A program made the position numbers and the translations under genes. The notes under the pieces were generated by a model that saw only the letters and a list, made by a program, of their open reading frames with translations, was not told the DNA's origin and searched no databases. Shown here in pieces: positions 17,925 through 54,789 of a DNA stretch of 64,000 nt; position 1 is the first letter of the stretch, and each line of letters begins with the position of its first letter. The stretch comes from Massilia psychrophila (GTDB lineage: Bacteria; Pseudomonadota; Gammaproteobacteria; Burkholderiales; Burkholderiaceae_D): contig NZ_PDOB01000003.1 of assembly GCF_002760665.1 (NCBI RefSeq), positions 129,434-193,433 on the forward strand, in the 5' to 3' direction.

Positions 17925-18826
17925 TGATTTCCCCCGCGCGCGCCGGCCTGGTTCACAACGCCGCACAGGCGCGCGCCGTGCTGCCCGAGTGGTGGCCGGT
18001 GCTGGCAGGAATGGCGCTGCTGTTCGGGCCGACGTTTTACGACCTGTTCACCGGCGCCTGGATCGGCGAAGAGCAGGGCCACGGGCCGATCATCTTTGCC
18101 CTGGCGCTGTGGCTGATCGCGCGCAAGTGGCCCGCCACGCTGGCGCCGCCGCACCCACACCTGCAGTCGCAGTCAGCAGGATCCTGGGCCGGCTGGCCGC
18201 TGCTGGCCGTTGGGCTCGGGCTTCACCTGCTGGGGCGTTCACAGCACATTCTGATGTTCCAGATCAGCGCAATCATCTGCGTGATGGCGGCGGTACTGCT
18301 GGTCAAGCGCGGCGCGGCAGTGGTCAGGATGCTGTGGTTCCCGTTTTTCTTCATGCTGTTCATGGTGCCGTTGCCGAGCGAATTAGTGGCGACCTTGACG
18401 TTGCCGATGAAGATGGCGGTGTCGTACGCCACCGAGCAGCTGCTGTTTTTGGCCGGCTACCCGATCAGCCGTTCCGGCGTGGTGCTGCAGATCGGCCAGT
18501 ACCAGTTGCTGGTGGCCGACGCCTGCGCTGGCCTGCAAACCTTACTGACGCTCGAAGCGCTCGGCCTGTTCTACCTGAACGTGGTCCAACATACATCGGC
18601 GGTACGCAACGTCGCACTGGCGCTGCTGATCATCCCGATCTCGTTTTTTGCCAACATCATCCGCGTCATCACGCTGACCCTGATTACCTATCATTACGGC
18701 GACGCTGCCGGCCAGGGCTTTCTGCACGGCTTTGCCGGCATGGTGCTGTTCCTGACCGCGCTGTCGCTGATTGTGTTTGTCGATTCGGCGTTGCAATGGG
18801 GCGTGCGCCTCAAGGGGGCGCGGTGA
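17924..18826 (+). CDS. xrtB: Exosortase B (XrtB, EpsH family)
   Basis: This is a 300-residue membrane protein with about eight helices. The exosortase catalytic triad is visible: Cys201 in VADACAGLQTL, Arg247 in FFANIIRVI and His268 in FLHGFAGMV. The DACAGLQ form of the Cys motif and the operon context (epsD-E-F-G before, epsI after) identify the B class. Exosortases are thought to cleave the C-terminal PEP-CTERM signal of exported proteins and transfer them to an envelope or matrix acceptor. Two VPEP-type proteins are encoded 20-27 kb downstream. Start overlaps the epsG stop as TGATG. Confidence 0.93.
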   Translation: MISPARAGLVHNAAQARAVLPEWWPVLAGMALLFGPTFYDLFTGAWIGEEQGHGPIIFALALWLIARKWPATLAPPHPHLQSQSAGSWAGWPLLAVGLGLHLLGRSQHILMFQISAIICVMAAVLLVKRGAAVVRMLWFPFFFMLFMVPLPSELVATLTLPMKMAVSYATEQLLFLAGYPISRSGVVLQIGQYQLLVADACAGLQTLLTLEALGLFYLNVVQHTSAVRNVALALLIIPISFFANIIRVITLTLITYHYGDAAGQGFLHGFAGMVLFLTALSLIVFVDSALQWGVRLKGAR

Positions 18827-39100: not shown

Positions 39101-39144
39101 TCGCGATCACCTATACCGCATCGATTTACTCTGGAACATTTTAA
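36130..39144 (+). CDS. ExeM/NucH-family extracellular endonuclease
   Basis: This is a 1004-residue exported protein. Its signal peptide (MLAALCASLALPALAA) follows a slightly long N-region. A lamin-tail domain comes first (VVVSQVYGAGGNTG, RDYIELFNRSASPVSLAG). An OB-fold-like region follows (ISQIQGSGAKSPVADM, VRVTGTVTEF). The endonuclease/exonuclease/phosphatase domain covers the region from about residue 560: ASANVLNFFTTF, VVGLMEIQNNG, VVNHLKSKRCG, VIGDMNAHG and SDHDPVVVSLN, with the metal-binding Glu, Asp and His. A C-terminal beta-sandwich ends without a PEP-CTERM signal. It should degrade extracellular DNA. The next gene, a PEP-CTERM protein, starts 12 bases later. Confidence 0.9.
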   Translation: MKKPVAPIYFPGRMTMLAALCASLALPALAAPGNVVVSQVYGAGGNTGASRNRDYIELFNRSASPVSLAGMSVQYQSATGTAWQSTALPNVSLAAGQYFLVTGAGGANGSEVGTADQTGSLNLSGTTGKVALSKIAESMTPANQAANIVDLVGFGTANSFEGKVAPAPSATMAIFRAANGCTDTDNNADDFSAGIPAARSTSAGANVCGGGTPAVKPIVLKTSCPASVSFAAGSGGAITLVATDLDSNITSASISAGARAGVSLGSFVASGAGAEASATLSVDASVPVGAFVVDVTFANDTNASESATCKVTLMASGTSTISQIQGSGAKSPVADMVQTTEGVITFKTSSSFYIQHLAGDGDPSTSDGIFVFGGVTPAVVGELVRVTGTVTEFTPGSAPASITQFKDTTSIVRLGGGYTVTPTNVSMPADLERYEGMLVRFTGSLIVNAVDSLGERGELTLASVRREVPTSRYRPGSAEALNLAARNAADQIVLDDLIFTQSATIPYIAADNTVRAGDSVDNLIGIVDYGSIGNSKYGYKLQPLSVGSVSIVRSNPRTAGPELPIGNIKVASANVLNFFTTFTNGASTENTSTSNGCTIGTRPALPANCRGADNREEFLRQRAKIVHELKAIDADVVGLMEIQNNGNIAVDHLVGALNAAMGPNTYAAVPVPSFTGTDAIRVAMIYKPAKVAASGSPIADDDRDINNRATLAQTFKAGNGAKFSVVVNHLKSKRCGSASGANADKLDGQGCWNADRLGQANRLKDYFIPRVIQESGDPDVLVIGDMNAHGFEDPIRALTDAGMVNQLERFVRPREMVYSYVFDGLAGYLDHALATASLDAQMAGATEWHNNADEPEVIDYNFNLGTTKTAKPQDLYENNAYRASDHDPVVVSLNLAATFFNVTSSFTVQRSGYTQNRATGQYTGTYRFTNNSGAAINGPFQLELAGLPAGVTLVNATGAHNGLPYISAGGASIAPGATVTVTTTFANPNKVAITYTASIYSGTF

Positions 39145-39156
39145 GGAAAACCTGCC

Positions 39157-39903
39157 ATGATCAATGCTAAAACATTCCTGCGGCAGTGCCTGCTGGCGCT
39201 CACCCTGGCGGCTACGGCTCTCGGCGCGCTGGCCGGCCCGACCAGCTTTCACGTCAACCTGAACACCAGCGCTCTGGCGAAACCGACATACATCGACCTG
39301 TTCTTCTCGGCCGCCAGCAATGCCGCGCCGGCCTCGGCAACCGTATCGAATTTCACTGGTGCGTTCGGCACCGTCGATTACGCCGACGGCGCGGTCGTCT
39401 TCAATGCCGATGGCAGCATCACCATCGGCAATAGCCCTTTTTCGAACATGGTCGGCTTCAATGTCTTGTTCGGCGATACATTCGGCTTCGACGTGTCGTT
39501 CAATTCCGACTTCTTAAACGGCAATAGCATCGATGGCAGCACTTTTTCAGTGTCCGCCCTCGACGCCGGTCTCAATCCGATCGGTGGCCCGCTGGTCACC
39601 TTCGATCTATTCGGCGGCGCCGGGATCGCCGTCGGCGCCGATGGCCAATTCGCCAGCGTTACCGCGGTGCCGGAACCGTCCGAACTGCTGCTGATGATGA
39701 CCGGCCTGGGCCTGATCGGCTTCGTGCACCGCCGCCGCAAGCAGCGCGCCGTTGCCGCACCGGCGACGCCATGCTGTCGCATTTGCGCCGCGAGCTGCAG
39801 CTGGCCGGCGTCGAACACATGGTGGTGCACGCTGGCGGGCGGCTCGACCCTGTTAACGGAAATTTTGGGCGGCGCCTCGCGTCTTACTGTGGCGCTAAGA
39901 TAG
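39157..39903 (+). CDS. PEP-CTERM protein with unusual C-terminal extension
   Basis: This is a 248-residue exported protein with AAGGA before the start and a signal peptide ending near residue 27. The mature part (SFHVNLNTSALAKPTYIDLF) resembles a family of small PEP-CTERM matrix proteins. A complete sorting signal is present: VPEP at 171-174, a hydrophobic helix and the basic cluster HRRRKQR (191-197). Such proteins normally end there, but this frame runs on for 51 residues, Cys/Trp-rich and without homology I recognise. A lost stop codon or a frameshift is likely. The stop overlaps a minus-strand lipoprotein gene by 20 bases. Confidence 0.82.
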   Translation: MINAKTFLRQCLLALTLAATALGALAGPTSFHVNLNTSALAKPTYIDLFFSAASNAAPASATVSNFTGAFGTVDYADGAVVFNADGSITIGNSPFSNMVGFNVLFGDTFGFDVSFNSDFLNGNSIDGSTFSVSALDAGLNPIGGPLVTFDLFGGAGIAVGADGQFASVTAVPEPSELLLMMTGLGLIGFVHRRRKQRAVAAPATPCCRICAASCSWPASNTWWCTLAGGSTLLTEILGGASRLTVALR

Positions 39904-41160: not shown

Positions 41161-44100
41161 TTATTCGGCGCCGACCTCGAGCGGCTTCGAATTGAGCGCC
41201 AGCGGCACTGGATCGTTGGTCTGCACGTCGACCAGCGTGGTGCCGGCGACTACGCCATCGACCTTGAACGACGCCGCGCCCAGGTAGCGCTGGCCGGCGG
41301 CCAGGCTGGACCAGCTCATGCCCACCGAGGCGGTGCCACCAATGTAGGCGGTGGCAGGAGCGAGCACCTTGAAGTTGCCGCCGACGTCCGTTGACGACAC
41401 GATCCATGACGACAGGGTGGCCGTGGTCGACGGACGCGCTTGCAGGCTATACGCGATCACGCAGACCTTGTAAGTGCCCGCCGCCGGGTTCATCAGCGTT
41501 ACCGCCTCGTTCGAACCGTCGTTGCCGCTGGCGCCAACGATGGTGCTGGTCGAGTTCAGGACGACCAGATCGAGATCGTCTTCCGCGCCCGGTATTGCAG
41601 CAGCGGTGGTATCGGCGTTATACAGCGAGAAGCGCGCCACCTGTGTGCCTGCCGGAACAACGACGTTCGTCACCCGGACCGCCGGCGAGGTGCCGGCAGC
41701 GCACAAGCCCTGCTGCGCGGCGTTGCTGACGGCCGAAATAGTGAACGTGTTGCGGGTTGCCGGCTTCAGGCCAGCCTTGTCGACGGTCATCGGGCCGGCG
41801 AAGCCGGTGCCGACGGTGATGATCTTGCTGCCGCTGGCGGCTTCGCTGTAGACCAGCGACGGCGCCGACAGCGCGGTGCCGCGGGCGCTGACGGGGATGC
41901 GCACCTTGTGGCCGATTCCGTCTTCCCAGGTCAGGTTGCCGAAGCCCCAGGCGTTGAGCGGCTTGTTGGTACGGGTCAGCTTGACGCTGTAGGTCTGGCT
42001 GGCGCCGGGCGCGATGGTGAAGCTCGCCGGCGTGACAACGCCGCTGTAGCCATCGATGGCAACCGTCGCCGTGTAGGTGGACGAGACGTCGCTGACGTTG
42101 GTGACGGTACGCGTGATGGTCTGCGAACCGAGCACTGCGCCGGCCGTTATCGACGGCAGGTTCAATGCCACGCCCTTGATCGAGCCGAACGCGGCGCAGG
42201 TTGCGGGCGTGTAGATCGGCACGTTGGGGGCGGTGAAGCCGCAGCCCAGGCGCACATAGTCGGCCAGGCCTGCGTTGTACACGAGACCCGGATCGCTGGC
42301 GCCGTTCGGCGTCACGTGGCCTGCGCCTTGTCCGAACGGCTTGTTGCCGGCCGCGGTGGCACCTTTCGTCCATGGCAGTGCGGCCGACACGCCGTCGTTG
42401 AGTGTGTCGGTCGCCGTGGTCATCAGCGCCGATTTGATCATCGCCGGCGTCCAGGTCGGGTACTGCTGTTTCAGCAATGCGGCCAGGCCGGCGATGTGCG
42501 GGCTGGCCATCGATGTGCCGGAGATGATGCTCAAGCCAGTCTTGCTGGTGGCGCCACCGGCTTTCAGCGTGCTCACTTCGTCGGCGGTCGTCGACGGCGT
42601 GTAGGCTGCGGCGATATCGACGCCCGGCGCCGAGATGTCCGGCTTGAGCATGTTGTTGTCGGCCACGTTCGGGCCGCGCGAGGAAAAACCGGCGACAAAC
42701 GGCGCCGGCTTGTCGAGAAATACCAGGGCTTTCGTCAGCGCAGCCGTTGGCATGGCATTGGCGGCGGCATAGGCCTTGAGCAGGTTGCCATCGCCCGCGC
42801 TGATATGCACCGTCGGTACCGAGTGCACTTCGCTCACCAGGCCGGCCCCATTGTCGGCCAGCACCATGCCGGCGCCGCTAGCGGCGAGCACGGCGGCGCT
42901 CTTGTTGGTGCGGGCGTTGTTGCCGCGGTCGCAGATGACGATCTTGCCCGCTACCAGGTCCGGGTCGAGCGCCCCCATCGACGAGGCGGTAGTGCCTGCG
43001 GGCATGCCCGGGAAGCTGGCGGCCGCGGTGCGGTCAGCGGCGGTGTAGCACAGGCGGCGCGCCAGCTGGTCGGCCGGGGTGAGTGCGGCATAGGCGACGG
43101 TGCCGGCATTGCGGGCGCTGATCACTGCAGCGCTTGGCAGCGCGACCTGGTTGAGCGAGGCGCCGCGATAGATCGCGCCGTTCCCTGCGACCACGTTGGC
43201 GCCGATAGCGCGATTGTGGGTCGATGCCGCCACCGTCGCGTTCCATGGCCCCAGGTTGGCGGCCGGACCCGTGACCGGACCGGCGTTGCCGGCCGAAGCG
43301 GCAACGAAAATACCGGCGTTGGACGCGTTCAAAAACGCCACCGCTGTCGGGTCGGACATCAAACCGCCGCCGGCGGTCGGGCCGATCGAGTAGTTGATGA
43401 CGTCGACGCCATCCTTGATCGCCTGATTGACGGCGGCCACGGTGCTGCTGCCTGCGCAGCCGCCGCCGGTGAAGCACACCTTGTACATTGCCAGCCGCGC
43501 ACGCGGCGCCATGCCCGACAGAGAGCCGAGATCGATGCCGTTGATGGTGACCGGCACGCCGGCGTTGCCGCCCGCGGTCGACAGGGTGTGCGAGCCGTGA
43601 CCGCCGCTGCCTTCAGCCGTAGCGTCGCGGCCGGACGGGAAATCGGCGGCGGCGATAGTCAAGTTGGCGGGGGCGTACGAGCGGATGCCGATCAGCTTGT
43701 TATTGCAGCTGGCGGCCGTGATGCCGGGCTTGAGTTCGCAACCGTTGGGCAAATCCGACGCGCCGGCGTAATTGCGCCACTTGGCCGGTGGCGGTCCGTA
43801 TGCCAGGGTGCCGCTGGCATCGTGGGTGGGCGTGCCGTTGGCGTCGACGCGGTCAGCGAAACTGGCGTTCTCCGGCCACACACCGCTGTCGAGCATGGCG
43901 ATGATCATGCCTTCGCCAGCGCTGCCTTTGCCGCCGACCTTGCTCCACAGGCCGTTGGCCTGATCGAGGCCGAGGAAAGCCGGGGTGCTGCTGGTGTGCA
44001 ATTGCTGCATGCTGTCGGCATGGATGCTCAGCACGCCCGCGTTCTTCTTGAGCGCGCGCACTTCGGTGTCGGTCAGCATGGCGGCGAAGCCATTGAGGGC

Positions 44101-44394
44101 AACATCGTAGCGGGCGGTGACGTTGGCCGGGTCGATACCGGCGAGCACGTCATTCTGTTTTCTTTCGAGGTAGGCGATGTAGTTCTGCACGTCGGTCGCC
44201 GAAATGTCAAGGTGACTACCCGGCGCCGGTTTGGTGGCGGGCAGGCCGGCGATGCCGCCTTCATATGAGGCGGCGGCGGTGGCGGGCAGCTGGACGATGT
44301 AGGAGCGGCGTACTTCCTGGGCATTCGCGGTAAAGGCGATACTGGCCAGCAGCGTCATGACTGCCAGCGAAATAGGACGGAGTTTCTGGTTCAT
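41161..44394 (-). CDS. Secreted S8 (subtilisin-like) serine protease
   Basis: This is a 1077-residue exported protein from ATG 44394 (MNQKLRPIS; signal peptide cut near FTANAQE). An inhibitor-I9-type propeptide comes first (RSYIVQLPAT). The catalytic triad is visible: Asp169 in IAMLDSGVWPENASF, His266 in GGHGSHT and Ser628 in GTSMASPHIAG. A protease-associated (PA) domain is inserted at ~residues 460-560, and fibronectin-like and pre-peptidase-type beta domains follow. No PEP-CTERM signal ends it. It should degrade extracellular proteins; export could be through the adjacent type II-like system. A PEP-CTERM gene lies just upstream, 43 bases away on the same strand. Confidence 0.93.
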   Translation of the reverse strand: MNQKLRPISLAVMTLLASIAFTANAQEVRRSYIVQLPATAAASYEGGIAGLPATKPAPGSHLDISATDVQNYIAYLERKQNDVLAGIDPANVTARYDVALNGFAAMLTDTEVRALKKNAGVLSIHADSMQQLHTSSTPAFLGLDQANGLWSKVGGKGSAGEGMIIAMLDSGVWPENASFADRVDANGTPTHDASGTLAYGPPPAKWRNYAGASDLPNGCELKPGITAASCNNKLIGIRSYAPANLTIAAADFPSGRDATAEGSGGHGSHTLSTAGGNAGVPVTINGIDLGSLSGMAPRARLAMYKVCFTGGGCAGSSTVAAVNQAIKDGVDVINYSIGPTAGGGLMSDPTAVAFLNASNAGIFVAASAGNAGPVTGPAANLGPWNATVAASTHNRAIGANVVAGNGAIYRGASLNQVALPSAAVISARNAGTVAYAALTPADQLARRLCYTAADRTAAASFPGMPAGTTASSMGALDPDLVAGKIVICDRGNNARTNKSAAVLAASGAGMVLADNGAGLVSEVHSVPTVHISAGDGNLLKAYAAANAMPTAALTKALVFLDKPAPFVAGFSSRGPNVADNNMLKPDISAPGVDIAAAYTPSTTADEVSTLKAGGATSKTGLSIISGTSMASPHIAGLAALLKQQYPTWTPAMIKSALMTTATDTLNDGVSAALPWTKGATAAGNKPFGQGAGHVTPNGASDPGLVYNAGLADYVRLGCGFTAPNVPIYTPATCAAFGSIKGVALNLPSITAGAVLGSQTITRTVTNVSDVSSTYTATVAIDGYSGVVTPASFTIAPGASQTYSVKLTRTNKPLNAWGFGNLTWEDGIGHKVRIPVSARGTALSAPSLVYSEAASGSKIITVGTGFAGPMTVDKAGLKPATRNTFTISAVSNAAQQGLCAAGTSPAVRVTNVVVPAGTQVARFSLYNADTTAAAIPGAEDDLDLVVLNSTSTIVGASGNDGSNEAVTLMNPAAGTYKVCVIAYSLQARPSTTATLSSWIVSSTDVGGNFKVLAPATAYIGGTASVGMSWSSLAAGQRYLGAASFKVDGVVAGTTLVDVQTNDPVPLALNSKPLEVGAE

Positions 44395-44437
44395 TGTTGT
44401 GATCCCGGTCTTATTGAGATTGTTGGAGGGAGATGAA

Positions 44438-45109
44438 TCAAGCACACTTGCGGCGGCGATAGGCGGCCAGCATGGCCGCCAGGCTCAGCGCGACCAATGG
44501 CAGGCTGGCCGGCTCCGGCACGTAAGCGATATTGTCGAGGCCGAACTGAGCCTGATTGCCGGCCGGGCTGACGCAAGCGCCAGCGGTGTTGTACAGGCAG
44601 GCGTTGAACGTCACCTCGGTGAAGCGGGTCTGGCTGAAGGGGCCGTCGAAATCCCAATGCGCAAACCCGTAGTCGCCATTCAGGTCCTGCAGCGCAAAGT
44701 CCTTCGAGGCAGAGCTGCCGTCATTGCCGGTGACGACTAACTGGCCGACCGTAAAGTTGATCAGAGCGTCGAGCGGCAAGAGGAACCCGAAGTCCACGCC
44801 GGTCAGGTTGAACAGGCTGCCGCTGAGACCGAAGCTGACGCCGCCATCGTTTACGCCAGCGTAATATTTGCTCGAATTGCCAGCCGGGCATACCGCGATG
44901 TCGCAGCTGGTCGGGTCGCTGCCGTTGATGATTGCGCCGTCAAAACCGTTCGTACCGCGGACAGTGATTGTCTGCATCCCATCGGTAAGGACCTCGCCGC
45001 CGGAATAGATGGCGGGACCAAAATTATCGAACGTCACAACGCCGGCAGACGCCGACGAACATACGCTGGCAATTGCCATCGCCACTGCAAAGCTGACACT
45101 CTTTTTCAT
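44438..45109 (-). CDS. PEP-CTERM sorting-domain protein
   Basis: This is a 223-residue exported protein with a signal peptide (MAIASVCSSASAG) and a mature region starting VVTFDNFGPAIYSGGE. It has a few Cys and the C-terminal sorting signal VPEP (197-200), a hydrophobic helix and YRRRKCA at the very end, the normal layout. It is a predicted exosortase substrate for the cell surface or EPS matrix. It is encoded just upstream of the S8 protease on the same strand and may share its transcript. Its long upstream spacer also serves the divergent secretion operon. Confidence 0.88.
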   Translation of the reverse strand: MKKSVSFAVAMAIASVCSSASAGVVTFDNFGPAIYSGGEVLTDGMQTITVRGTNGFDGAIINGSDPTSCDIAVCPAGNSSKYYAGVNDGGVSFGLSGSLFNLTGVDFGFLLPLDALINFTVGQLVVTGNDGSSASKDFALQDLNGDYGFAHWDFDGPFSQTRFTEVTFNACLYNTAGACVSPAGNQAQFGLDNIAYVPEPASLPLVALSLAAMLAAYRRRKCA

Positions 45110-45600
45110 TTTTATCTCTTATATTTTCTTGGCATTCCGGTATTCGGTCGCGGCGCCGCAGGCGTAAGGCGGTTCCCCTCCCGGGCAATTTGTTGATTTC
45201 CTTAAATGTTTCAGGATGCAATAAAATATAGCAAATAGAATAATTTTGATGTTAAAAAAGTTAACAACTAATATTTTTGATTTCCAACTTGTTGCAATAT
45301 TTAATTCTGTTTGCACTAGGGAAATGTATTTTCATGCGGACATTTATTTCGCAAATATGCAACGATTTTGCGACACGGGGGAAAAGTTCAGTTTCTTTTC
45401 TCGACGGACCGTGATAGGCGGAAGAGGAAGAATGCGTTGAGAACGCGTCAACCTTCCTGATAGAAAAGATAAATTTGGCAAGGATACTTGCGCTGTGGTA
45501 GCATTTTGGGCCGGCTTGCCTAAATTGCATCGCTTGCATCGCTTGCACGCGTCGCGGCAGTGTAGTTTGGTTAAAAATGATTGATTGAGGGAGTACGCGA
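45110..45600. other. AT-rich divergent regulatory spacer (PEP-CTERM gene / secretion operon)
   Basis: These 491 bases contain no gene. Rightward, TTGATT (45277-45282) and TTTAAT (45300-45305) with a 17-base spacer are a possible sigma-70 promoter. TTTGGCAAGG...TTGC at 45474-45491 looks like a -24/-12 promoter but has 11 instead of 10 bases between GG and GC. A tandem 9-mer at 45525-45548 is listed separately. Just upstream of the leftward PEP-CTERM gene is a GC-rich block (45130-45190) that contrasts with its AT-rich surroundings and may fold in the leader RNA. Confidence 0.45.
45525..45548. repeat. Short tandem 9-mer repeat upstream of gspG
   Basis: TTGCATCGC occurs twice in tandem (45525-45542) and is followed by a partial third copy TTGCAC. 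It ends about 50 bases before the gspG start, a position suited to a regulator-binding site. Confidence 0.5.
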
Positions 45601-46044
45601 ATGGTCGAGCGAATTTTCCGGAACTACATTACAGTCCCACGCGCCCAGCGCGGCTTCACCTTGCTCGAACTGTTGGTCGTCATCGTCATCATTGGCCTGC
45701 TCGCCGCCTACGTCGGCCCGAAATACTTTTCGCAGCTGGGCAAGTCGGAAGTGACCATCGCCAAAGCCCAGATCGGCGCCTTCGAAAAGTCGCTCGACAC
45801 CTACCGGCTCGACATCGGCCGTTACCCGAACACCGAGGAAGGACTGGCTGCCTTGCTGGCGGCGCCGGCCAGCGCCGCCGGCAAATGGAACGGCCCTTAC
45901 CTCAAAAAAGCCGTGCCGCCCGATCCCTGGGGCCATCCGTTCCAGTACCGTGCGCCGGGTCCGAAGGGCGAGTTCGACATTCTCTCGCTCGGGCGCGACG
46001 GCCAGCCCGGCGGCAGCGGCGAAGACGCCGACATCACCAATTAG
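45601..46044 (+). CDS. gspG: Type II secretion major pseudopilin GspG
   Basis: This is a 147-residue prepilin. The prepilin peptidase site QRGFTLLELLVV has Gly before Phe+1 and Glu+5, followed by the hydrophobic helix. The C-terminal globular part with RYPNTEEGLAALL, PYLKKAVPPDPWG and FDILSLGRDG is the classical GspG Ca-binding layout. GspG forms the pseudopilus that pushes exoproteins through the secretin. It is the first gene of the secretion operon; gspF follows after 17 bases. Confidence 0.94.
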   Translation: MVERIFRNYITVPRAQRGFTLLELLVVIVIIGLLAAYVGPKYFSQLGKSEVTIAKAQIGAFEKSLDTYRLDIGRYPNTEEGLAALLAAPASAAGKWNGPYLKKAVPPDPWGHPFQYRAPGPKGEFDILSLGRDGQPGGSGEDADITN

Positions 46045-46061
46045 CCGGGACCGGAAACAGC

Positions 46062-47237
46062 ATGCAGTACGAGGTGCGCGCCCTGTCGCCCGATTCCATG
46101 GTTGAACAGCTGAGCATCGACGCGCTCGACGAAGCCGATGCCCGCCGCCAGGTCGAAGCGCGCGGCCTGTTCGTCTCCACCATCAAGCGGCGCGGCGGCG
46201 CGCGCGCCACCGGCGGCATTTCGCTGGTGCTGTTCAGTCAGGAACTGCTGGCGCTGCTATCGGCCGGTCTCGGCGTCGTCGAGGCGCTCGAAGCGCTGCT
46301 CGAAAAGGAAGCCAACCCGGCACTGGCCAACGTGCTCGGACGCCTGCTCGCCGGCCTGCGCGAAGGCAAGCGCTTTTCCAGCGTGCTGGCCGAGCAGGGC
46401 GAGCGTTTTCCGCCGCTCTACATCGGCATCGTCAAGGCGGCCGAAGGCACCAGCGACCTGCCGCGCTCCCTCTCCCGCTACATCGACTACCAGCAGCGCA
46501 TCGACGCGGTGCGCGCAAAAATCGTCAGCGCGGCGATCTACCCGATGATCCTGTTGACGGTCGGCGGCGGCGTCAGCGCTTTCCTGATTACCTATGTGGT
46601 GCCGCGCTTCGCCGAGGTCTACCAGGGTGCCGGGCGCAACCTGCCGTTCATGTCGCGCCTGCTGCTGTCGTGGGGCCAGTTCGCCGCCAACCATACCGCC
46701 TGGCTGCTGGCCGCTGCCTGCGCGCTGGCCGCGCTACTGGTGTTCGCAGCGCGCCGCCTGATGCGCGGTGGCGGTATTGCCGGCCTGCTGGCGCGCCTTC
46801 CCGGCATCGGCGAGCGGGTGCGCATCTATGAACTATCCAGGCTGTACCTGACGCTCGGCATGCTGGCCGAAGGCGGCATCCCGATCGTGCAGGCGATCGA
46901 CACGGTGCGCTCGATGGTGTCGCCGGCGGTGCAGGGAAAATTGCAGAACGCAAGACTGGCGGTCGAATCGGGCTTGCCGCTGTCGAGCGCTTTTGCCGCC
47001 AACGGCCTGACCACGCCGATTTCGCTGCGCATGCTGCGCGTCGGTGAGCGCACCGGCGACATGGGACCGATGCTGACCCAGTCGGCGGCTTTTTACGACG
47101 GCGAAATCAGCCGCTGGATCGACCGTTTTACCCGCACCTTCGAGCCGCTGTTAATGGCCGCTATCGGGCTGGTGGTGGGCGCCATCGTGGTGCTGCTGTA
47201 CATGCCGATCTTCGACCTCGCCGGGGACATGTCGTGA
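46062..47237 (+). CDS. gspF: Type II secretion inner-membrane platform protein GspF
   Basis: This is a 391-residue protein from ATG 46062 (MQYEVRAL). It has two GspF cytoplasmic domains (FSQELLALLSAGLGVVEALEAL and ELSRLYLTLGMLAEGGIPIVQA), each followed by membrane helices, with the last helix VVGAIVVLLYMPIF at the C-terminus. The KAAEGTSDLP and RVGERTGDMGPML repeats are typical of this family. It forms the platform that the GspE ATPase works against. The stop overlaps the gspE start (GTGA). Confidence 0.93.
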   Translation: MQYEVRALSPDSMVEQLSIDALDEADARRQVEARGLFVSTIKRRGGARATGGISLVLFSQELLALLSAGLGVVEALEALLEKEANPALANVLGRLLAGLREGKRFSSVLAEQGERFPPLYIGIVKAAEGTSDLPRSLSRYIDYQQRIDAVRAKIVSAAIYPMILLTVGGGVSAFLITYVVPRFAEVYQGAGRNLPFMSRLLLSWGQFAANHTAWLLAAACALAALLVFAARRLMRGGGIAGLLARLPGIGERVRIYELSRLYLTLGMLAEGGIPIVQAIDTVRSMVSPAVQGKLQNARLAVESGLPLSSAFAANGLTTPISLRMLRVGERTGDMGPMLTQSAAFYDGEISRWIDRFTRTFEPLLMAAIGLVVGAIVVLLYMPIFDLAGDMS

Positions 47238-48940
47238 CGGCGCTGCCCGCCCAGTTGCCGGGGCTTTTACTCGACCCGGCGCTGCTGGCGCGCGCGCGCG
47301 CGCAAAGCGCGCAGTCGCGGCGCTCGCTGGTCGACGAAATCGAAGCCGAGAGCGGCTTCGATCCGCGCCTGATCGTGTGCGCGCTGGCCGCGCCGTTCGG
47401 CCTGGCCGTGCTCGAGACGGCCGACATGCTGGCGTTCACGCCGGCGTTCGACCTGCTGCCGCTGGCGCAGGCGCTGGCGCGCCGCTGCGTGTTGCTGCGC
47501 AGTGCCTCGAAAGAGCTGATCGGCGTGATGGCCGACCCGTTCGACCTTGACCTGCAGACCTGGCTGGGGGCGCGCGCGCAGGCGACGCCGCACAAGATGC
47601 TGCACACCCGTCTTGCGCTAGCCTCCGACATCCAGGCCTACCTCGGCAAGCACGAGGAATCGGCGCGCGCGGTCGACAGCCTGGCGCCAGGCGTGGCCGA
47701 CGGCAAACGTGACGGCAAGGCGGCTGCGGTGCTGTCGTTCGCTTCCGTCAGCGAAGCGGCCAGCCCGGCGGTCCGGCTGGTCAATTCGACCCTGTACGAC
47801 GCCTTGAAAGCGGGCGCCTCCGACATTCACCTCGAAAGCACCGCGTTCGGCCTGGCCGTCAAGTACCGCATCGACGGCGTGCTCGATCACGCCACTTCCG
47901 TCAACGGCATCGAAGTGGCCGAGCAGGTCGTCTCGCGCCTGAAAGTGCTGGCCGAACTCGATATTTCGGAGCGGCGCATCCCGCAGGACGGCAGTTTCCG
48001 GGTCGAGTCGGGCGGGCGCGAGATCGACCTGCGGGTGTCGATCATGCCGAGCATCCACGGCGAAGACGCGGTGATCCGGATCCTCGACAAGCGCGCCATG
48101 ATCGAAGCCTACGGCGCCCTGACGCTCGAGGCGCTCGGCTTCGATGCGCCGTCGCTGGTGTCGCTGCGTTCGCTGGCACAGGAAGCCTACGGCATGCTGC
48201 TGGTGACCGGCCCGACCGGCTCCGGCAAGACCACCACGCTGTACGCGGCGCTGACCGAAATTAACAACGGCCGCGAAAAGATCATCACCATCGAAGACCC
48301 GGTCGAATACCAGTTGCCCGGCATCCTTCAAATCCCGGTCAACGAAAAAAAGGGCCTGACCTTCGCCAAGGGTTTGCGCTCGATCCTGCGCCACGACCCG
48401 GACAAGATCATGGTCGGCGAAATCCGCGACCGCGAAACCGCCGAAATCGCCGTGCAGTCGGCCCTGACCGGCCACCTGGTACTCACCACCGTGCACGCCA
48501 ATAACGTATTCGACGTGTTCGGCCGCTTCACCCATATGGGCATCGACCCGTACGCGTTTGTGTCGGCCCTGAACGGCATTTGGGCCCAGCGCCTGGTGCG
48601 CACCAACTGCCCGCACTGCGCTGTCGCCTACCGTCCCGACGACGCCGAACTTGCCGCCGTCAACCTCGCGCGCGCCGACGTCCACGATTACCTGTTCATG
48701 CAGGGCAAGGGCTGCGGCGACTGCCGCGGCACCGGCTACAAGGGACGCCGTTCGATTGCCGAAATCCTTACCCTGAACGACGAGATCCGCGAACTGATCG
48801 TCGACAAGCGGCCGATCCGCCAGATCAAGGCGGCCGCCTACGACAACGGCACCCGCAGCCTGCGCCTGGCCGCGCTCGACCTGGTGCGGCGTGGCGCCAC
48901 CACGCTGGCCGAGATCAGGCGGGTGACCTTGCATGCGTAG
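47234..48940 (+). CDS. gspE: Type II secretion/pilus assembly ATPase GspE
   Basis: This is a 568-residue cytoplasmic ATPase starting at GTG 47234. It has an N-terminal MshEN-like domain, a degenerate N2 domain, then GPTGSGKTTTLYAAL (Walker A), the Asp box ITIEDPVEYQLPG, Walker B IMVGEIRDRETAE, the His box LTTVHANN and a Cys4 zinc site (NCPHC...GCGDC). It powers pseudopilus assembly. The next gene begins 8 bases before its stop. Confidence 0.93.
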   Translation: MTALPAQLPGLLLDPALLARARAQSAQSRRSLVDEIEAESGFDPRLIVCALAAPFGLAVLETADMLAFTPAFDLLPLAQALARRCVLLRSASKELIGVMADPFDLDLQTWLGARAQATPHKMLHTRLALASDIQAYLGKHEESARAVDSLAPGVADGKRDGKAAAVLSFASVSEAASPAVRLVNSTLYDALKAGASDIHLESTAFGLAVKYRIDGVLDHATSVNGIEVAEQVVSRLKVLAELDISERRIPQDGSFRVESGGREIDLRVSIMPSIHGEDAVIRILDKRAMIEAYGALTLEALGFDAPSLVSLRSLAQEAYGMLLVTGPTGSGKTTTLYAALTEINNGREKIITIEDPVEYQLPGILQIPVNEKKGLTFAKGLRSILRHDPDKIMVGEIRDRETAEIAVQSALTGHLVLTTVHANNVFDVFGRFTHMGIDPYAFVSALNGIWAQRLVRTNCPHCAVAYRPDDAELAAVNLARADVHDYLFMQGKGCGDCRGTGYKGRRSIAEILTLNDEIRELIVDKRPIRQIKAAAYDNGTRSLRLAALDLVRRGATTLAEIRRVTLHA

Positions 48941-49721
48941 GCGCTTCGGACAGGGCTTGCGGCTCGGCGTCGCCGCGAGCGCGCTGGCACTGGTGCAAAC
49001 GCGCCGCTGGGGCGGGCCGGCGGAACTGCTCGCCGAGCAGCCGTATGCGAGCGTTGGCGCGCTGCCCGATGCGCTGGCGGCGCTGCTCGGCGGCGGATAC
49101 GCCGGCTGGCCGTTGACGATCGTGCTGAGCGACGAACTGGTGCGCATGTGGCAGGTGACGCCGCCTGCGCAAACCACGCGCCTGGCCGACCTCGAAGCTG
49201 CCGCCGCGCTGCGCTTCCAGCGGCTGTACGGCGAACCGGCGGCCGACTGGATCGTGCGCGCCGGCTGGGACGCGGGCCAACCCTTCCTGGCGGCGGCGAT
49301 GCCGCGTGCTTTGCTCGCCGCACTCGGGCAGGGCGCCGCCATGCAGCACATGAAGCTGGTCGAAATCGTGCCGCAGTTTGTCGCGCTGCTGAACCGTTGC
49401 CGCGGCGAGCTGGCGGCGGGCGCCTGGTTCGGCACCCTGCACGACAAGGTGCTGACCCTGGGCGCGCGCGAAGGTGGCCTGCTGGTGGCGGTGCGCGCAC
49501 AAGCGCTGCCGGCGGCACCAGGCCCGCTCTGGCTGGCCGAACACCTGGCGCGCGAAGCACTGCGCCTGAACCTGGCCGCGCCGAATCGCCTGCAACTGTG
49601 GGGTGCGCCGCCGACGTGGCTTGGCGCGGGCACGACCACGACCACGACCACGCTCGGCTCGCCTGGTGCCGCCGGCTGGACCCAGGCAGCGGTGCTGGCC
49701 GCCAGCGGGAGCGCCGCATGA
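48933..49721 (+). CDS. PilM/GspL-cytoplasmic-domain-like platform protein
   Basis: This is a 262-residue protein with no membrane segment. Family similarity is weak, but its place, between gspE and a PilN-like gene, and its mixed alpha/beta sequence (WPLTIVLSDELVRMWQV, ADLEAAAALRFQRLYG, VEIVPQFVALLNRC) point to an actin-like PilM or GspL-type cytoplasmic domain. A low-complexity Thr run (from ACGACC repeats) lies near the C-terminus. The ATGA overlap with the next gene suggests a fixed ratio. The assignment is by context. Confidence 0.65.
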   Translation: MRRRFGQGLRLGVAASALALVQTRRWGGPAELLAEQPYASVGALPDALAALLGGGYAGWPLTIVLSDELVRMWQVTPPAQTTRLADLEAAAALRFQRLYGEPAADWIVRAGWDAGQPFLAAAMPRALLAALGQGAAMQHMKLVEIVPQFVALLNRCRGELAAGAWFGTLHDKVLTLGAREGGLLVAVRAQALPAAPGPLWLAEHLAREALRLNLAAPNRLQLWGAPPTWLGAGTTTTTTTLGSPGAAGWTQAAVLAASGSAA

Positions 49722-50281
49722 AGCGCGTGCGCATCGATTTCGCGCCGCCTGGCCTGGCGCGCACCGTTTATCGCACCGGGCCGCTGGGCTGGAGCCTGGC
49801 GCTGCTGGCAGTGCTGCTGTGCTCTGCTGCCGTCGCCATTGGCTGGCAGATGCTGGCGCGCCAGCGCGTGCTCGATACCCAGCTCGCGCTGGTGCGCGCC
49901 CATGCTGCGCCGGTGGCGGTGGCCGTGGTGGCGCCTGTGCAGATCGGCGAGCCGCAGGCGCAAGCGGTCAACGCCGCGGTGCTGCAACTGAACCTGCCGT
50001 GGCGCGCGCTGCATGACGCCGTCGAGCAGGCCACGCCAAAGCAGATTGCCCTCATCGCGCTCGAGCCGGATCCGCGCCGGCGCAGCATGAAAATCACCGC
50101 CGAGGCGAAAAACAGCGATGACATGATCGCCTACGTCGAACAGCTCAAGCAGCAGGAGCTGTTCGGCCTGGGCGCTGGTACCGTCGTCGGAGGAGTTACG
50201 CTGCTGCGCCACGAGACGGTCGAGCTCGATCCGAACCGGCCAATCCGCTTCCAGCTCGATGCACAGTGGAGCGCGCCATGA
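49718..50281 (+). CDS. PilN-like inner-membrane platform protein
   Basis: This is a 187-residue bitopic protein: a short cytoplasmic N-terminus (MKRVRIDFAPPG), one membrane helix (SLALLAVLLCSAAVAIGW), a coiled-coil-like stretch and a small periplasmic domain (KITAEAKNSDDMIAYVEQLK). This is the PilN or GspL periplasmic layout. It is flanked by PilM-like and PilO-like genes with ATGA overlaps on both sides. Confidence 0.7.
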   Translation: MKRVRIDFAPPGLARTVYRTGPLGWSLALLAVLLCSAAVAIGWQMLARQRVLDTQLALVRAHAAPVAVAVVAPVQIGEPQAQAVNAAVLQLNLPWRALHDAVEQATPKQIALIALEPDPRRRSMKITAEAKNSDDMIAYVEQLKQQELFGLGAGTVVGGVTLLRHETVELDPNRPIRFQLDAQWSAP

Positions 50282-50886
50282 ACGGCCCGGCGTTTTCCGC
50301 CGGCGCGTTGCGGCGCATGTTGCACCTCATGTTGCGGCTCATGTTGCGCCTGCGGCTGGCGTGGTCGAGCCTCGGTCCGGTCGCCGCCGGCGCCGCTGTG
50401 CTGATGATCTCCGGCGCGCTGGCACTGGCCTGGCTGCTGCCCGAGCGCGCCTTGCAGGGCCAGCGCCGCGCCGTCGCGCTCGGCCCGGCGGCGGTGCCAG
50501 TCGTCGCACCGCCGCCAAGCCCGGATGCCAACCTGGCGCTGTTCTACGACACCCTCGGCGAACGCCGCTATGCCGAGCAGCAGGTCAAGACCTTGTTTGC
50601 GCTGGCCGCCAAGACCGGCCTGGTACTGAGCCAGGGCGAGTACAAGAGCGCGTTCGAGCAGAACGGCCGTTTCCATACTTACCAGCTCAACCTGCCGGTC
50701 AAAGGCAGCTACGCCGCCATCTGGCAGTTCGCCATGCTGGCGCTGCGGGCGATCCCGTTCGCCTCGTTAGATGAAATCAGCTTTCGCCGCGACACCATCG
50801 GCGCGCCGGCGGTCGAAGCGCGGCTGCGCCTGACCTTGTATTTGGCCCACCCGCTCGCCGGCCAGCCGCCCGGAGCGACGCCATGA
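50278..50886 (+). CDS. PilO/GspM-like inner-membrane platform protein
   Basis: This is a 202-residue bitopic protein with one membrane helix (VAAGAAVLMISGALALAWLL) after a basic, repetitive N-terminus (MLHLMLRLMLRL, encoded by a 12-base tandem repeat). Its periplasmic part has a ferredoxin-like pattern (TYQLNLPVKGSYAAIWQF). This matches PilO or GspM. ATG 50278 overlaps the previous stop (ATGA); GTG 50266 would add four residues. Confidence 0.68.
   Translation: MNGPAFSAGALRRMLHLMLRLMLRLRLAWSSLGPVAAGAAVLMISGALALAWLLPERALQGQRRAVALGPAAVPVVAPPPSPDANLALFYDTLGERRYAEQQVKTLFALAAKTGLVLSQGEYKSAFEQNGRFHTYQLNLPVKGSYAAIWQFAMLALRAIPFASLDEISFRRDTIGAPAVEARLRLTLYLAHPLAGQPPGATP
50317..50352 (+). repeat. Three-copy 12-base tandem repeat within the PilO-like gene
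   Basis: ATGTTGCACCTC, ATGTTGCGGCTC and ATGTTGCGCCTG stand in tandem and encode MLHL-MLRL-MLRL at the cytoplasmic N-terminus. Copy number could vary without a frameshift. Confidence 0.7.
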
Positions 50887-51419
50887 TGGCGCGCCACCTG
50901 CTGCTGGGCGCCGCGCTGCTGGTAGCCGCCGGCTTCGCGCTGTTTGGCGACAACAGTCCGAGTGGCGCCGTGGTGGAGCCGGCGCTGCGTGCCAATGCGG
51001 CCAATGCGGCCAATGCGGCCGCCGTCCCCGCGCGCGCCGCGCAGAAAGCCGCCGCCGTCACCATCCTGCGCCTGGAAGAGCGCACCGCGCTGGTCGTGGC
51101 TGGCGAAGGCAGCGCCGGCCGCGACGCCTTCGCCAGCCACGACTGGACGCCGCCGCCGCCAAAACCGCCGCCGCCATCGCCGCCGCCGCCACCGCCGCCG
51201 CCAAGTGCGCCGCCGCTGCCGTTCACCTTCCTCGGCAAGGCCGTTTCGAACGGCCAGTGGGAAGTGTTCCTCGCGCGCGGCAGCGAGACCTTGATTGTTC
51301 GCGACAAGATGGTACTCGACGGCGTCTACCGCATCGACGCCATCGCGCCACCCGGCATGACGATGACCTATCTGCCCCTGAACCAGGTTCAACAGCTTAA
51401 TATTGGAGTACTCGACTGA
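50883..51419 (+). CDS. PilP/GspC-like periplasmic connector protein with Pro-rich linker
   Basis: This is a 178-residue protein with an N-terminal membrane anchor (LLLGAALLVAAGFALF). A repetitive ANAANAANAA segment follows (three 9-base GCCAATGCG copies at 50991-51017), then a long polyproline linker and a small C-terminal beta domain (LPFTFLGKAVSNGQWEVFLARG) that looks like the homology region of PilP/GspC. It should connect the inner-membrane platform with the secretin encoded next. ATGA overlap before, TGATG overlap after. Confidence 0.7.
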   Translation: MMARHLLLGAALLVAAGFALFGDNSPSGAVVEPALRANAANAANAAAVPARAAQKAAAVTILRLEERTALVVAGEGSAGRDAFASHDWTPPPPKPPPPSPPPPPPPPSAPPLPFTFLGKAVSNGQWEVFLARGSETLIVRDKMVLDGVYRIDAIAPPGMTMTYLPLNQVQQLNIGVLD

Positions 51420-53305
51420 TGGCAAGTCACCTGAACCGCATATGTCGTGCGCTGGTCATTCGTCTGCTGGTCATGGGCGCCGCGCTGGCGCTGGCCGGCT
51501 GCGCGGCGCAAACCGCTTACCGCGACGCTGAAAAACTGGTGGCCGGCGACAAGGTCGAAGCGGGCCTGGTCAAGTACCGGGAAGCCATCGCGCTCGACCC
51601 TGGCAACGCACTGTACCGCACCGCCTTTTTGGCCGCGCGCGACCGCAGCACCACCGGCCTGCTCGAGCAGGCCGAGCGCGAACTGGCGGCCGGCAAGAGC
51701 GACCTGGCGGCACGCAGCTACCAGCGCGCGCTGGCGATCGACCCGGCCAACGAGCGCGCCCGCGCCGGCGTGCGCCTGCTCGAGGCCGACGCACGCCACG
51801 CGATCCTGGTCGGCGACGCCGGCGCCGCCTTCGCCAGGGCAGACCATGAACTGGCGCGCCAGAAGCTGACGGCAGTGCTGGCGGAGCGGCCGAACCATGA
51901 GCCGGCACGCGTGCTGCTGGCCCAGGTAGTCGAAAAAACGGCGCTGCCGGCGTTGGATGCCGGCCTTGGCGCCGCTTATAAACTGCCGATCAGCATCGAG
52001 TTCCGCGACGCCTCGCTGAAACAGGTGTTCGAGGTTATCTCGCGCCGCTCCGGGCTGAACTTCCTGTTCGACAAGGACGTCAAGACCGACCAGCGCACCT
52101 CGATCTTCCTGAAGAACAGTACGGTGGAAGCTGCCATTTATTATTTGCTGGTGAGCAACCAGCTGGAACAGCAGATCATGGACGGCAACACGATCTTGGT
52201 CTACCAAAACATTCCGGCCAAGCTCAAGGAATACCAGGAGATGACGGTCAAGACCTATTTCCTGGCCAACGCCGAAGCGAAGAACGTCGCCAACACGCTT
52301 AAAACCATCCTCAAGTCGCGCGACGTCGTCGTCGACGAGAAGCTTAACTTGCTGATCGTGCGCGACAGCCCGGAGGCGATCAAGCTGGCCACACGGTTGG
52401 TGGCTTTGCAGGACGTGGCCGAGCCGGAAGTGATGTTAGATGTCGAGATCCTCGAAATCAAGCGCAGCCGGCTGATGGACCTCGGCATCGCCTGGCCGTC
52501 CAGCGTCGGCTTCGCGCCGCTGCAGTCGAGCGGCGCGGGGCCGCTGACGATCGACGTGCTGCGCCAACTGAACGGCGGCAGCATCGGCGTGACCGGCATC
52601 GCTGCCACCATCAACGCTAACAAGACCGACGGCGACTCTAACACGCTGGCCAACCCGCGCATCCGCGTGCGCAACAAGGAAAAGGCCAAGGTCGTCATCG
52701 GCGACAAGGTGCCGGTCATCACCACCATCATCACCCCCGGCAGCAGCGGCGGCTTTGCTTCGGAAGCGGTCAGTTACGTCAACGTCGGCCTGACCCTGGG
52801 CGTCGAGCCGACCATTTACCTCAACAACGAGGTGGCGATCCGCATCGAACTGGAGGTGTCGAACCTGGTCGACACCCTTACCACCAAGTCCGGCTCGGTA
52901 GCCTACCGCATCGGCACCCGTTCGGCCAGCACCATGCTGCAATTGAAAGATGGCGAAAACCAGGTGCTGGCCGGCCTGATCAGCAATGAAGACCGTACTA
53001 GTGGCAGCAAGGTGCCTGGCTTTGGCAGTTTGCCGATCCTCGGCCGCCTGTTCGGCAGCACGCGCGACTCGAACGACAAGAACGAGATCGTGCTGTCGAT
53101 CACGCCGCACCTGGTGCGCACTGTGCAGCGCCCGGCGCTCGGCGCGTCCGAATTTGCGGCCGGCACCGAAACCAGTTTCCGCCGCCGTCCCGACCCCGTG
53201 CCCAGGGCGCCGGCGCAGTTGCCAGCGCAGTTGCCGGCGTCGCCTGACGGCGTGACTGTCACGCCGGTGCCGTCTCCTTCGCTGTTGCCCACCCCGGCGC
53301 AATGA
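51419..53305 (+). CDS. gspD: Type II secretion secretin GspD (lipoprotein with TPR region)
   Basis: This is a 628-residue outer-membrane channel protein. The signal peptide carries a lipobox (LALAGC, Cys28). TPR-like repeats come first ([32 protein letters not shown]), then STN and N1-type domains ([35 protein letters not shown]) and the secretin domain ending [16 protein letters not shown] and [14 protein letters not shown] Pro-rich tail follows. The TPR head and lipid anchor resemble type IV pilus or MSHA-type secretins more than classical GspD. It overlaps its neighbours (TGATG, ATGA). Confidence 0.92.
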
Positions 53306-53772
53306 CCGCGCGCGGCTTCACGCTGATCGAGTTGCTGGTCACGCTGGCGATCCTGGCGCTGCTCGGCACGATCGTAGCGCCCGCCGTCCAGGTCACGGTC
53401 CAGCGCCGCAACGAACTGGAATTGCGCCGCGCGCTGCGCGAAATCCGGCTCGGCATCGACGCCTACAAGAAGGCCAGCGACGAAGGGCGCATCGCCAAAA
53501 ACGCCGGCGCCACCGGCTACCCGCCCAAGCTCAACGTGCTGGTCGACGGCGTGCGCGATTTGCGCCACCCGAAACGCGCCAAGCTATTTTTTCTGCGCCG
53601 CCTGCCGCGCGACCCATTGAATGTCGAACCCGAGCAGCCGGAAGCGCAAACCTGGGGCAAGCGCAGCTACGCCAGCGAAGCGGCCGACCCGCGCGAAGGC
53701 GACGATGTGTACGACGTGTATTCGACCTCGGAGCGGCTCGGCCTGAACGGCGTGCCGTATAAAAGATGGTAA
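53302..53772 (+). CDS. Type II secretion prepilin-like protein
   Basis: This is a 156-residue prepilin with the cleavage motif [13 protein letters not shown] (Gly before Phe, Glu at +5) and a hydrophobic helix. The globular part is short and basic ([20 protein letters not shown]) and close to the GspG type. It is probably a minor or additional pseudopilin. ATGA overlap with gspD. Confidence 0.85.
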
Positions 53773-54164
53773 CCCGGGTGATTATTTCGCGCCGAACGCG
53801 CGCCGGCTTCACGCTGATCGAGTTGCTGGTGGTGCTCGGCATCGTCGCGCTGCTGCTGACCCTGGCCGTGCCGCGGTTTTTCCCCGGCATCGACAGCGCG
53901 AAAGAGACCATCCTCGCCGACAACCTGCGCAACACCCGCAGCGTGATCGAGCAGTATTACAGCGACACCGGGCGCTATCCCGACTCGCTCGACCAGCTGG
54001 TCGAAAAAAAATATCTGCGCCAGTTGCCGCTCGACCCGATCTGCGGCAGCAGCGCCAGCTGGATCGTGGTGGCTCCGGAAGAGGGCGCAAGAGGCGCTGT
54101 TGCCGGTGTCAAGAGCGGCGCGCCCGGCAATGACCGCAGCGGCAAGCCGTACCTCGACTGGTAG
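53766..54164 (+). CDS. Type II secretion prepilin-like protein
   Basis: This is a 132-residue prepilin with [15 protein letters not shown] as cleavage and helix motif and a GspG-like head ([30 protein letters not shown]). Its start lies 7 bases inside the preceding gene. It probably forms part of the pseudopilus. Confidence 0.85.
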
Positions 54165-54168
54165 GCCG

Positions 54169-54789
54169 ATGGCGCCGAACGAATCCTCGAACTCATCTTG
54201 TCTATTACGTCGCCCCTCTCAGGGCGGCTTTACCTACCTCGGCCTGATCATCCTGGTCAGCGTGATCGGCATGATCGGCGCCGCCACCCTCAAGATCGGC
54301 GCGCTGATGCAGCGCGCCCAGGCCGAAGAAGAGTTGCTCGACATTGGCGCCGGCTTCAGCGCCGCGCTGCAAAGCTACGCGGCAGCGACGCCAAAAGGCC
54401 AGCCGCTGCAGCCGCCCAGTTTGCAGGAGTTGCTCAAAGACCCGCGCTCGCCGGCGCTGCGCCGCCACTTGCGCAAGATTTTCGTCGATCCCGCCACCGG
54501 CAGCACCGAGTGGGGCATTGCCTACCAGGCCGACAAGGTGGGCGTCGTGGCGGTGTACAGCCTGTCGCAGGCCAAGCCCCTAAAAATCGGCAACTTCGAC
54601 GCGCGCTTCGTCGGCTTCGACGGCAAGCAGCGTTTGTCGGACTGGAAATTTACCGCTGGCGCGTTTGCGCCGGTGCTGTTATCGACGGCGCCGGTGGACG
54701 CGGCGGCGCCGGAAACACCGCCCGCGGAGCCGGAAGAGCAGGTCGAAGACACGACAGCGCTACCGGCCGGGCAGGACAACACGCGTTGA
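54169..54789 (+). CDS. Prepilin-like protein with a Pro/Glu-rich tail
   Basis: This is a 206-residue protein from ATG 54169. QGGFTYLGLIILVSVIG resembles a prepilin motif, with Gly before Phe but Leu instead of Glu at +5. Glu+5 is normally needed for methylation or assembly, except in GspK-type tip pseudopilins. It may therefore be the tip pseudopilin. The C-terminal AAPETPPAEPEEQVEDTT is acidic and disordered. It is the last gene of the operon; murJ converges 8 bases later. Confidence 0.78.
   Translation: MAPNESSNSSCLLRRPSQGGFTYLGLIILVSVIGMIGAATLKIGALMQRAQAEEELLDIGAGFSAALQSYAAATPKGQPLQPPSLQELLKDPRSPALRRHLRKIFVDPATGSTEWGIAYQADKVGVVAVYSLSQAKPLKIGNFDARFVGFDGKQRLSDWKFTAGAFAPVLLSTAPVDAAAPETPPAEPEEQVEDTTALPAGQDNTR

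Follow-up and report, generated by a model that had tools for sequence, protein, structure and literature searches.

The 64-kb window analyzed here, taken from a 4.7-Mb draft genome of the Massilia/Telluria group (Burkholderiales), carries an operon of 11 open reading frames (ORFs; 45601–54789, forward strand; all coordinates are positions of the window unless a locus is named) that joins a GspG-type pseudopilin to a platform of PilM-, PilN-, and PilO-like proteins. The operon is widespread and conserved in gene order, its assembly proteins form a clade of their own, and its presence is statistically tied to that of exosortase. From these comparative data, we propose, at a probability of about 0.7, that it encodes an endopilus machine that secretes folded exoenzymes and that may, where the species has exosortase, secrete PEP-CTERM proteins as well.

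Operon composition and the inner-membrane platform

An earlier sequence-only reading of this DNA had described gspG, F, E, and D genes, four genes between gspE and gspD, and three extra prepilins; all eleven ORFs were recovered, in the order gspG, gspF, gspE, PilM-like, PilN-like, PilO-like, PilP-like, secretin, and prepilins A, B, and C (Table 1). The genes are tightly coupled, and the overlaps that it reported at each junction from gspF through the first extra prepilin are present, at 1 to 16 bases (in order, 4, 8, 4, 4–16, 4, 1, and 4 bases, taking 46062 as the start of gspF and 49718 as that of the PilN-like gene); short gaps separate gspG from gspF (17 bases) and prepilin B from C (4 bases). 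The secretin is, as proposed, a TPR-bearing lipoprotein, with both the N-terminal lipobox cysteine and the TPRs retained in homologs. No prepilin peptidase is encoded here, again in agreement with that reading, and the three A24 prepilin peptidase genes of the genome lie on three other contigs. One detail required correction: the Leu ascribed to position +5 of the last prepilin is at +4 (GG/FTYLGLIIL), and +5 is Gly. Among homologs of prepilin C (n = 123), residue +5 is Gly in 69, Ser in 28, Ala in 8, and Glu in a single case; GspK likewise lacks Glu at this position. A sigma-70 site upstream of the operon (45475–45504) scored no better than shuffled sequence.

In Pfam and NCBIfam scans, GspF, GspE, and the secretin returned strong family matches yet fell below all NCBIfam equivalog cut-offs, a pattern that points to a divergent relative and not to a standard type II secretion system (T2SS) or pilus. 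Prepilins A and B, the two scanned against NCBIfam, matched no GspH, GspI, GspJ, or GspK equivalog above cut-off.

The four middle proteins, whose genes gave no firm family match, were analyzed with alignments of 23–27 homologs each. No Pfam family of the PilM kind was matched by any of the 23 members of the PilM-like family. The AlphaFold2 model of this protein is confident (mean pLDDT 93), and its best VIA matches are PilM of Thermus thermophilus (2ych, Z 17.9) and of Myxococcus xanthus (Z 17.1), followed by the GspL/EpsL cytoplasmic domain (1yf5, Z 14.9) and FtsA (Z 14.8). For the PilN-like protein, PF05137 was matched in 19 of 24 homologs (best E 4e-9); its N-terminus reads IDFAP in the window and LDFAP in the homolog consensus, at the position held by the motif INLLP in PilN. 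The profile of the PilO-like family matches M. xanthus PilO (3jc8, E 1e-8), and single members match T2SSM_b (9/27) or PilO (7/27). The PilP-like protein ends in a beta/HR domain (residues 110–175 of the AlphaFold2 model) that resembles GspC HR (Z 8.8 and 7.8) and PilP (Z 7.7) about equally, such that the VIA search does not separate the two; it has no N-terminal lipobox Cys, and its layout of a transmembrane helix, Pro-rich linker, and HR domain is GspC-like. Taken with the HR topology, the fold and profile matches indicate a platform that is PilM-PilN-PilO in arrangement, with an HR protein that is GspC-like in topology. Structure and profile searches therefore support the PilM, PilN, and PilO identities, while "PilP" is equally GspC-like. 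The earlier assignment of these proteins to "PilM/N/O/P, not GspC/L/M" was right as to separate PilM-, PilN-, and PilO-like proteins but too sharp in its exclusion, given the matches to the GspL domain, T2SSM_b, and GspC HR.

Distribution, phylogeny, and association with exosortase

The complete gene order was found in 23 of 60 relatives, some with two copies; besides the window, 26 loci from 22 genomes keep it. This recurrence across the bacterial family and order is more than chance, and the gene order was also found in 80 loci from named genomes, among them Massilia, Duganella, Janthinobacterium, Rugamonas, and Undibacterium, as well as Accumulibacter, Pandoraea, Collimonas, Herbaspirillum, and Chitinimonas. 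Of 250 genomes from Burkholderiales, about 94 carry the operon as judged by a profile of the PilO-like protein (E ≤ 1e-10); matches weaker than E 1e-10 were left out of this count because they are probably PilO of the type IVa pilus (T4aP). The operon is a real, widespread machine, and this distribution rules out an oddity unique to the source genome.

Plasmid or megaplasmid copies occur in Janthinobacterium lividum, Paraburkholderia, and Cupriavidus metallidurans CH34, whose megaplasmid carries the same operon as the window. The J. lividum plasmid copy (locus L072, 857–3424 and 12294–12737) has an M4 metallopeptidase directly upstream, with gspG shifted to the end. Outside Burkholderiales, the distribution draws on one plasmid of the alphaproteobacterium Aliiroseovarius crassostreae and a literature table. 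The operon on that plasmid is a more distant form, in which an A24 peptidase (locus L073, 3164–3646) is the first gene and gspG follows the prepilins.

The genome that contains the window has six secretin genes, at loci that gene order and protein starts label as T4aP pilMNOPQ, a canonical T2SS, a mannose-sensitive hemagglutinin (MSHA) system, two read as Tad-type, and the window operon. An A24 peptidase match lies near each of the two loci read as Tad-type (G000:C19 and G000:C31). Because T4aP, MSHA, and the canonical T2SS are encoded at separate loci, the window operon is none of these. Quick trees with SH-aLRT support are consistent with this separation: in the GspF tree (IQ-TREE), a branch with support of 99 sets 25 homologs from this system apart from T2SS, T4aP, and MSHA, and the GspE tree recovers the same separation with support of 100, its side for this system also holding one divergent paralog and the Aliiroseovarius protein. 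In one genome (G054), a second, divergent GspE-like ATPase (L065, 2286–3734) adjoins the operon and groups on a long branch with the ATPases of this system. An MSHA or type IV pilus cluster, which the sequence-only reading had named as the identity that would speak against its proposal, is ruled out, as both are encoded elsewhere in the genome and fall in separate clades.

Across the 250 genomes, with exosortase called at E < 1e-20 and the operon by the PilO-like profile, 59 contain both, 35 the operon only, 31 exosortase only, and 125 neither (odds ratio [OR] 6.8, p 1e-11); co-occurrence is thus not strict. Keeping one genome per family (the first sampled, 50 families), the corresponding counts are 16, 8, 2, and 24 (OR 24, p 2e-5). 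As a control, the canonical T2SS marker GspL (PF05134) was compared with exosortase in the same way, giving an OR of 2.1 (p 0.009) and, at one genome per family, a p of 0.06. The operon and GspL are unrelated at one genome per family (OR 1.1), and among GspL-negative genomes only, the operon and exosortase remain associated (OR 10, p 6e-10). The association of the operon with exosortase is therefore stronger than that of the canonical T2SS. Both XrtB (curated cut-off) and XrtA-type exosortases contribute, the XrtA-type assignment being a rough one made by frame length only.

The two are also found close together: the operon lies ≤45 kb from an exosortase in 8 of the 59 double-positive genomes, against about 2.4 expected (p 0.0035), a rough expectation calculated with approximate values for mean copy number and genome size. 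The operon directly adjoins an EpsE-XrtB cluster in three genomes (G071, G115, and G083), which belong to two families.

Neighboring exoenzyme and PEP-CTERM genes

Upstream sequence long enough to read the gene preceding gspG was available for 70 loci. An S8 protease takes this slot in 26 of them and an ExeM nuclease in 23; the two never occur together within about 4 kb, and their exchange requires at least 9 changes on the secretin tree. In the window itself, the S8 protease adjoins gspG and ExeM lies farther out. The PEP-CTERM gene that the sequence-only reading placed back-to-back with the operon, together with a nearby protease and nuclease, could be assigned to the families NF038120, S8, and ExeM/NucH, respectively. 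PEP-CTERM genes of several families occur upstream of operon loci, and 21 of 81 loci, chiefly those of Janthinobacterium, Duganella, and Rugamonas, have one following prepilin C. After removal of three short false matches, the 870 kb of flanking sequence contain ~46 true PEP-CTERM genes, as compared with ~15 in the 4,730-kb genome of the window, the two figures coming from different detection methods. The gene murJ is a conserved neighbor in 58 of 80 loci. As the loci are related, mostly from Oxalobacteraceae, these neighbor counts are not independent.

Two further features of the window touch on this neighborhood. The NF038129 protein runs ~50 residues beyond its PEP motif, helix, and basic cluster; PEP-CTERM tags normally stand at the extreme C-terminus, and a frameshift or lost stop is therefore possible in this gene. 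The exosortase gene is part of a large exopolysaccharide (EPS) island (10223–35843) with a WcaJ-type transferase, EpsD/E/F/G, XrtB, a Wzy_C protein, a heparinase-like protein, and ManC, which stops just short of the ExeM nuclease gene; EpsE, EpsF, and EpsG of this cluster score above cut-off.

Table 1. Operon genes and neighboring features in the 64-kb window
Feature	Coordinates	Strand	Evidence
gspG, major pseudopilin	45601..46044	+	GFTLLEL, Glu at +5; TIGR01710 173 bits vs cut-off 88.85; Pfam T2SSG E 1e-41
gspF-like platform protein	46062..47237	+	ATG 46062; Pfam T2SSF E 5e-48; TIGR02120 247 bits, below cut-off 424
gspE-like assembly ATPase	47234..48940	+	Pfam T2SSE E 1e-120; N-terminal MshEN domain E 3e-7
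PilM-like actin-fold cytoplasmic protein, 262 aa	48933..49721	+	AlphaFold2 and VIA; no Pfam match
PilN-like protein, 187 aa	49718..50281	+	PF05137 in homologs; N-terminal IDFAP
PilO/GspM-like protein	50266..50886	+	Start GTG 50266 or ATG 50278; M. xanthus PilO profile match
PilP/GspC-type protein	50883..51419	+	Transmembrane helix, Pro-rich linker, HR domain (AlphaFold2)
Secretin with lipoprotein signal (Cys28), TPR region, STN, Secretin_N, Secretin	51419..53305	+	Pfam Secretin E 3e-37; Secretin_N, STN, TPR
Prepilin A (GFTLIEL)	53302..53772	+	N_methyl E 7e-7; position conserved
Prepilin B (GFTLIEL)	53766..54164	+	TIGR02532 above cut-off
Prepilin C (GGFTYLGLIIL), no Glu at +5	54169..54789	+	No Pfam family; GspK-like trait
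NF038120-family PEP-CTERM protein, divergent neighbor, candidate cargo	44438..45109	-	E 2e-60; PEP-CTERM motif
Secreted S8 protease (I9, S8, PA, fn3_6, PPC), candidate cargo	41161..44445	-	Domain scan
ExeM/NucH extracellular endonuclease, candidate cargo	36130..39144	+	NF033681 E 1e-157
NF038129-family PEP-CTERM protein, odd C-terminal tail	39157..39903	+	Family scan
Exosortase B (XrtB), in EPS cluster with EpsD/E/F/G	17924..18826	+	TIGR03113 373 bits vs cut-off 275

Relation to known systems and proposed function

The operon shares with the canonical T2SS (GspC–O) its GspG, the general logic of platform, ATPase, and secretin, a GspC-like HR domain, and a tip-type prepilin without Glu at +5. 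However, GspL is a single fused protein in that system (actin-like plus periplasmic ferredoxin-like domains), whereas PilM and PilN are split here, the secretin is a TPR lipoprotein, GspF and GspE group apart from the T2SS clade, and prepilins A and B match no GspH/I/J/K equivalog above cut-off. Conversely, the PilM fold, the PilN and PilO homology, and the M-N-O-P-secretin order are those of the type IVa pilus PilMNOPQ, from which the operon differs by its GspG-type major subunit, a "PilP" without an N-terminal lipobox Cys, the lack of PilT in the operon, and its separate clade.

The composition itself is on record. Two "unorthodox T2SS" are reported in the genome paper for Ralstonia solanacearum EP1, of which one has seven core gsp genes, with gspE and gspD separated by four hypothetical genes; for the unorthodox T2SS, the paper cites Genin and Boucher (2004) on GMI1000 (PMC5080846). 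Gene count and layout, compared by this description rather than by Ralstonia sequence, are the same as in the window; the description leaves the four proteins hypothetical, with neither a platform assignment nor an exosortase link. The layout itself is therefore not new, and the earlier statement that this is not a standard T2SS type is correct with respect to the canonical T2SS but not in implying an unrecorded composition. What seems to have gone unrecognized so far is the partnership of the operon with exosortase. A further lead, from the literature rather than from Geobacter sequences or gene content, is the Pul/Oxp T2SS of Geobacteraceae, likewise a second, "atypical" T2SS with few pseudopilins (PulG, OxpG, and TklG), on which multicopper oxidase secretion is described as dependent (Mehta 2006, in PMC3543383).

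Previous work predicted that C-terminally tagged PEP-CTERM proteins cross the outer membrane, with no route named, and placed the T2SS E protein NE1609 of Nitrosomonas at rank 34 by its fit to the PEP-CTERM profile, with listed homologs including RSp0148 and GSU1783 (PMC1569441); GSU1783 is elsewhere named as PulE (PMC8557921). That table row aside, a search of open-licence papers found none linking this subclass to exosortase. The GlyGly-CTERM/rhombosortase and MYXO-CTERM systems similarly involve proteins that bear a C-terminal tag and for which passage through the outer membrane is predicted; T2SS is generally present in GlyGly-CTERM species, but no T2SS subclass is marked by rhombosortase (PMC3237569), whereas a specific subclass is statistically tied to exosortase here.

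In the model that we infer, which includes secretion as such and the identity of the cargo, the machine would be complete as a type IV filament-superfamily secretion system except for its prepilin peptidase, a shared one whose gene lies elsewhere in the genome. The GspE ATPase and GspF platform would polymerize GspG, together with prepilins A, B, and the tip-type C, to build a short periplasmic endopilus; the inner-membrane platform would consist of the PilO/GspM protein and a GspL split into PilM and PilN; and the HR protein would connect this platform to the secretin, a TPR-bearing lipoprotein with a lipid anchor that may make a separate pilotin unnecessary. The piston would export folded periplasmic exoenzymes, for which the neighboring S8 proteases and ExeM nucleases are the best candidates; in exosortase-positive species, PEP-CTERM proteins would plausibly form another class of cargo. 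The sequence-only reading had suggested a protease, a nuclease, and a PEP-CTERM protein as putative cargo, and comparative data strengthen that suggestion; its interpretation as a whole is partly supported. That this subclass might serve many Burkholderiales as a main outer-membrane exit for exosortase-processed PEP-CTERM proteins and co-encoded exoenzymes is a more doubtful proposition, to which we would give rather low odds.

Several observations weigh against this model. Exosortase is missing from 35 of the 94 operon-positive genomes, and no PEP-CTERM gene lies near the loci of Undibacterium (with one exception), Accumulibacter, Pandoraea, Collimonas, or Herbaspirillum, from which it follows that PEP-CTERM export is not the only job of the operon. 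PEP-CTERM neighbors come mostly from one family, Oxalobacteraceae, and neither the S8 protease nor the ExeM protein in the window has a PEP-CTERM tag of its own. An RpoN-type (−24/−12) promoter upstream of gspG, which would have hinted at joint regulation with PEP-CTERM genes, was rejected: none occurs in the window, and 68 loci showed no excess over shuffled sequences. For members of this clade in Burkholderiales, no phenotype in secretion was found. Finally, both co-occurrence and synteny may stem from lifestyle or shared ancestry.

A rival explanation is a second, ordinary T2SS with divergent GspC, GspL, and GspM that exports general exoenzymes, its link to exosortase reflecting only a shared environmental lifestyle. 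The GspG equivalog match, the GspC-like HR domain, and the T2SSM_b matches favor such a system, as do the weak correlation of the canonical T2SS itself with exosortase and the third of operon-positive genomes that lack exosortase. We give it somewhat less than an even chance, however: PilM and PilN are separate genes rather than a fused GspL, GspF and GspE lie outside the T2SS clade, the two prepilins scanned match no GspH/I/J/K equivalog above cut-off, and the exosortase link is far stronger for the operon than for GspL and holds in GspL-negative genomes. A surface pilus, such as a T4aP- or MSHA-like adhesin, in place of a secretion endopilus appears improbable. While the PilM/N/O-like platform and the MshEN-type N-domain of the ATPase would suit it, and the ATPase profile of this system ranks the genome's MshE slightly above its canonical GspE (461 versus 416 bits), the major subunit is a GspG equivalog, the operon has no retraction ATPase, PilY1-like gene, or large adhesin gene, and T4aP and MSHA are encoded elsewhere and fall in separate clades.

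The flanking exoenzyme and PEP-CTERM genes might instead have come to lie there by chance, in a variable island that borders the stable murJ-rpsT region, in keeping with the frequency of murJ as a neighbor, the rapid turnover of neighboring genes, and a signal drawn mostly from one bacterial family. This too is unlikely, although less so than a surface pilus, as the exchanged genes are repeatedly members of two secreted-enzyme families and several PEP-CTERM families, the flanks are rich in PEP-CTERM genes relative to the genome, the S8/ExeM exchange is recurrent, and exosortase adjacency is also observed in other families, where the murJ context is not seen.

An endopilus secretion system, as preferred here, would bear on two questions. 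PEP-CTERM proteins are abundant in environmental biofilm- and floc-forming bacteria, and a subclass that tracks exosortase, adjoins XrtB in several families, and is bordered by PEP-CTERM and exoenzyme genes is a concrete candidate for their export route; if true, it would answer how PEP-CTERM proteins get to the matrix. Additionally, one conserved clade combines a PilM/PilN/PilO-type platform with a pseudopilin of the GspG type, which helps to locate T2SS and type IV pili within the evolutionary history of the superfamily.

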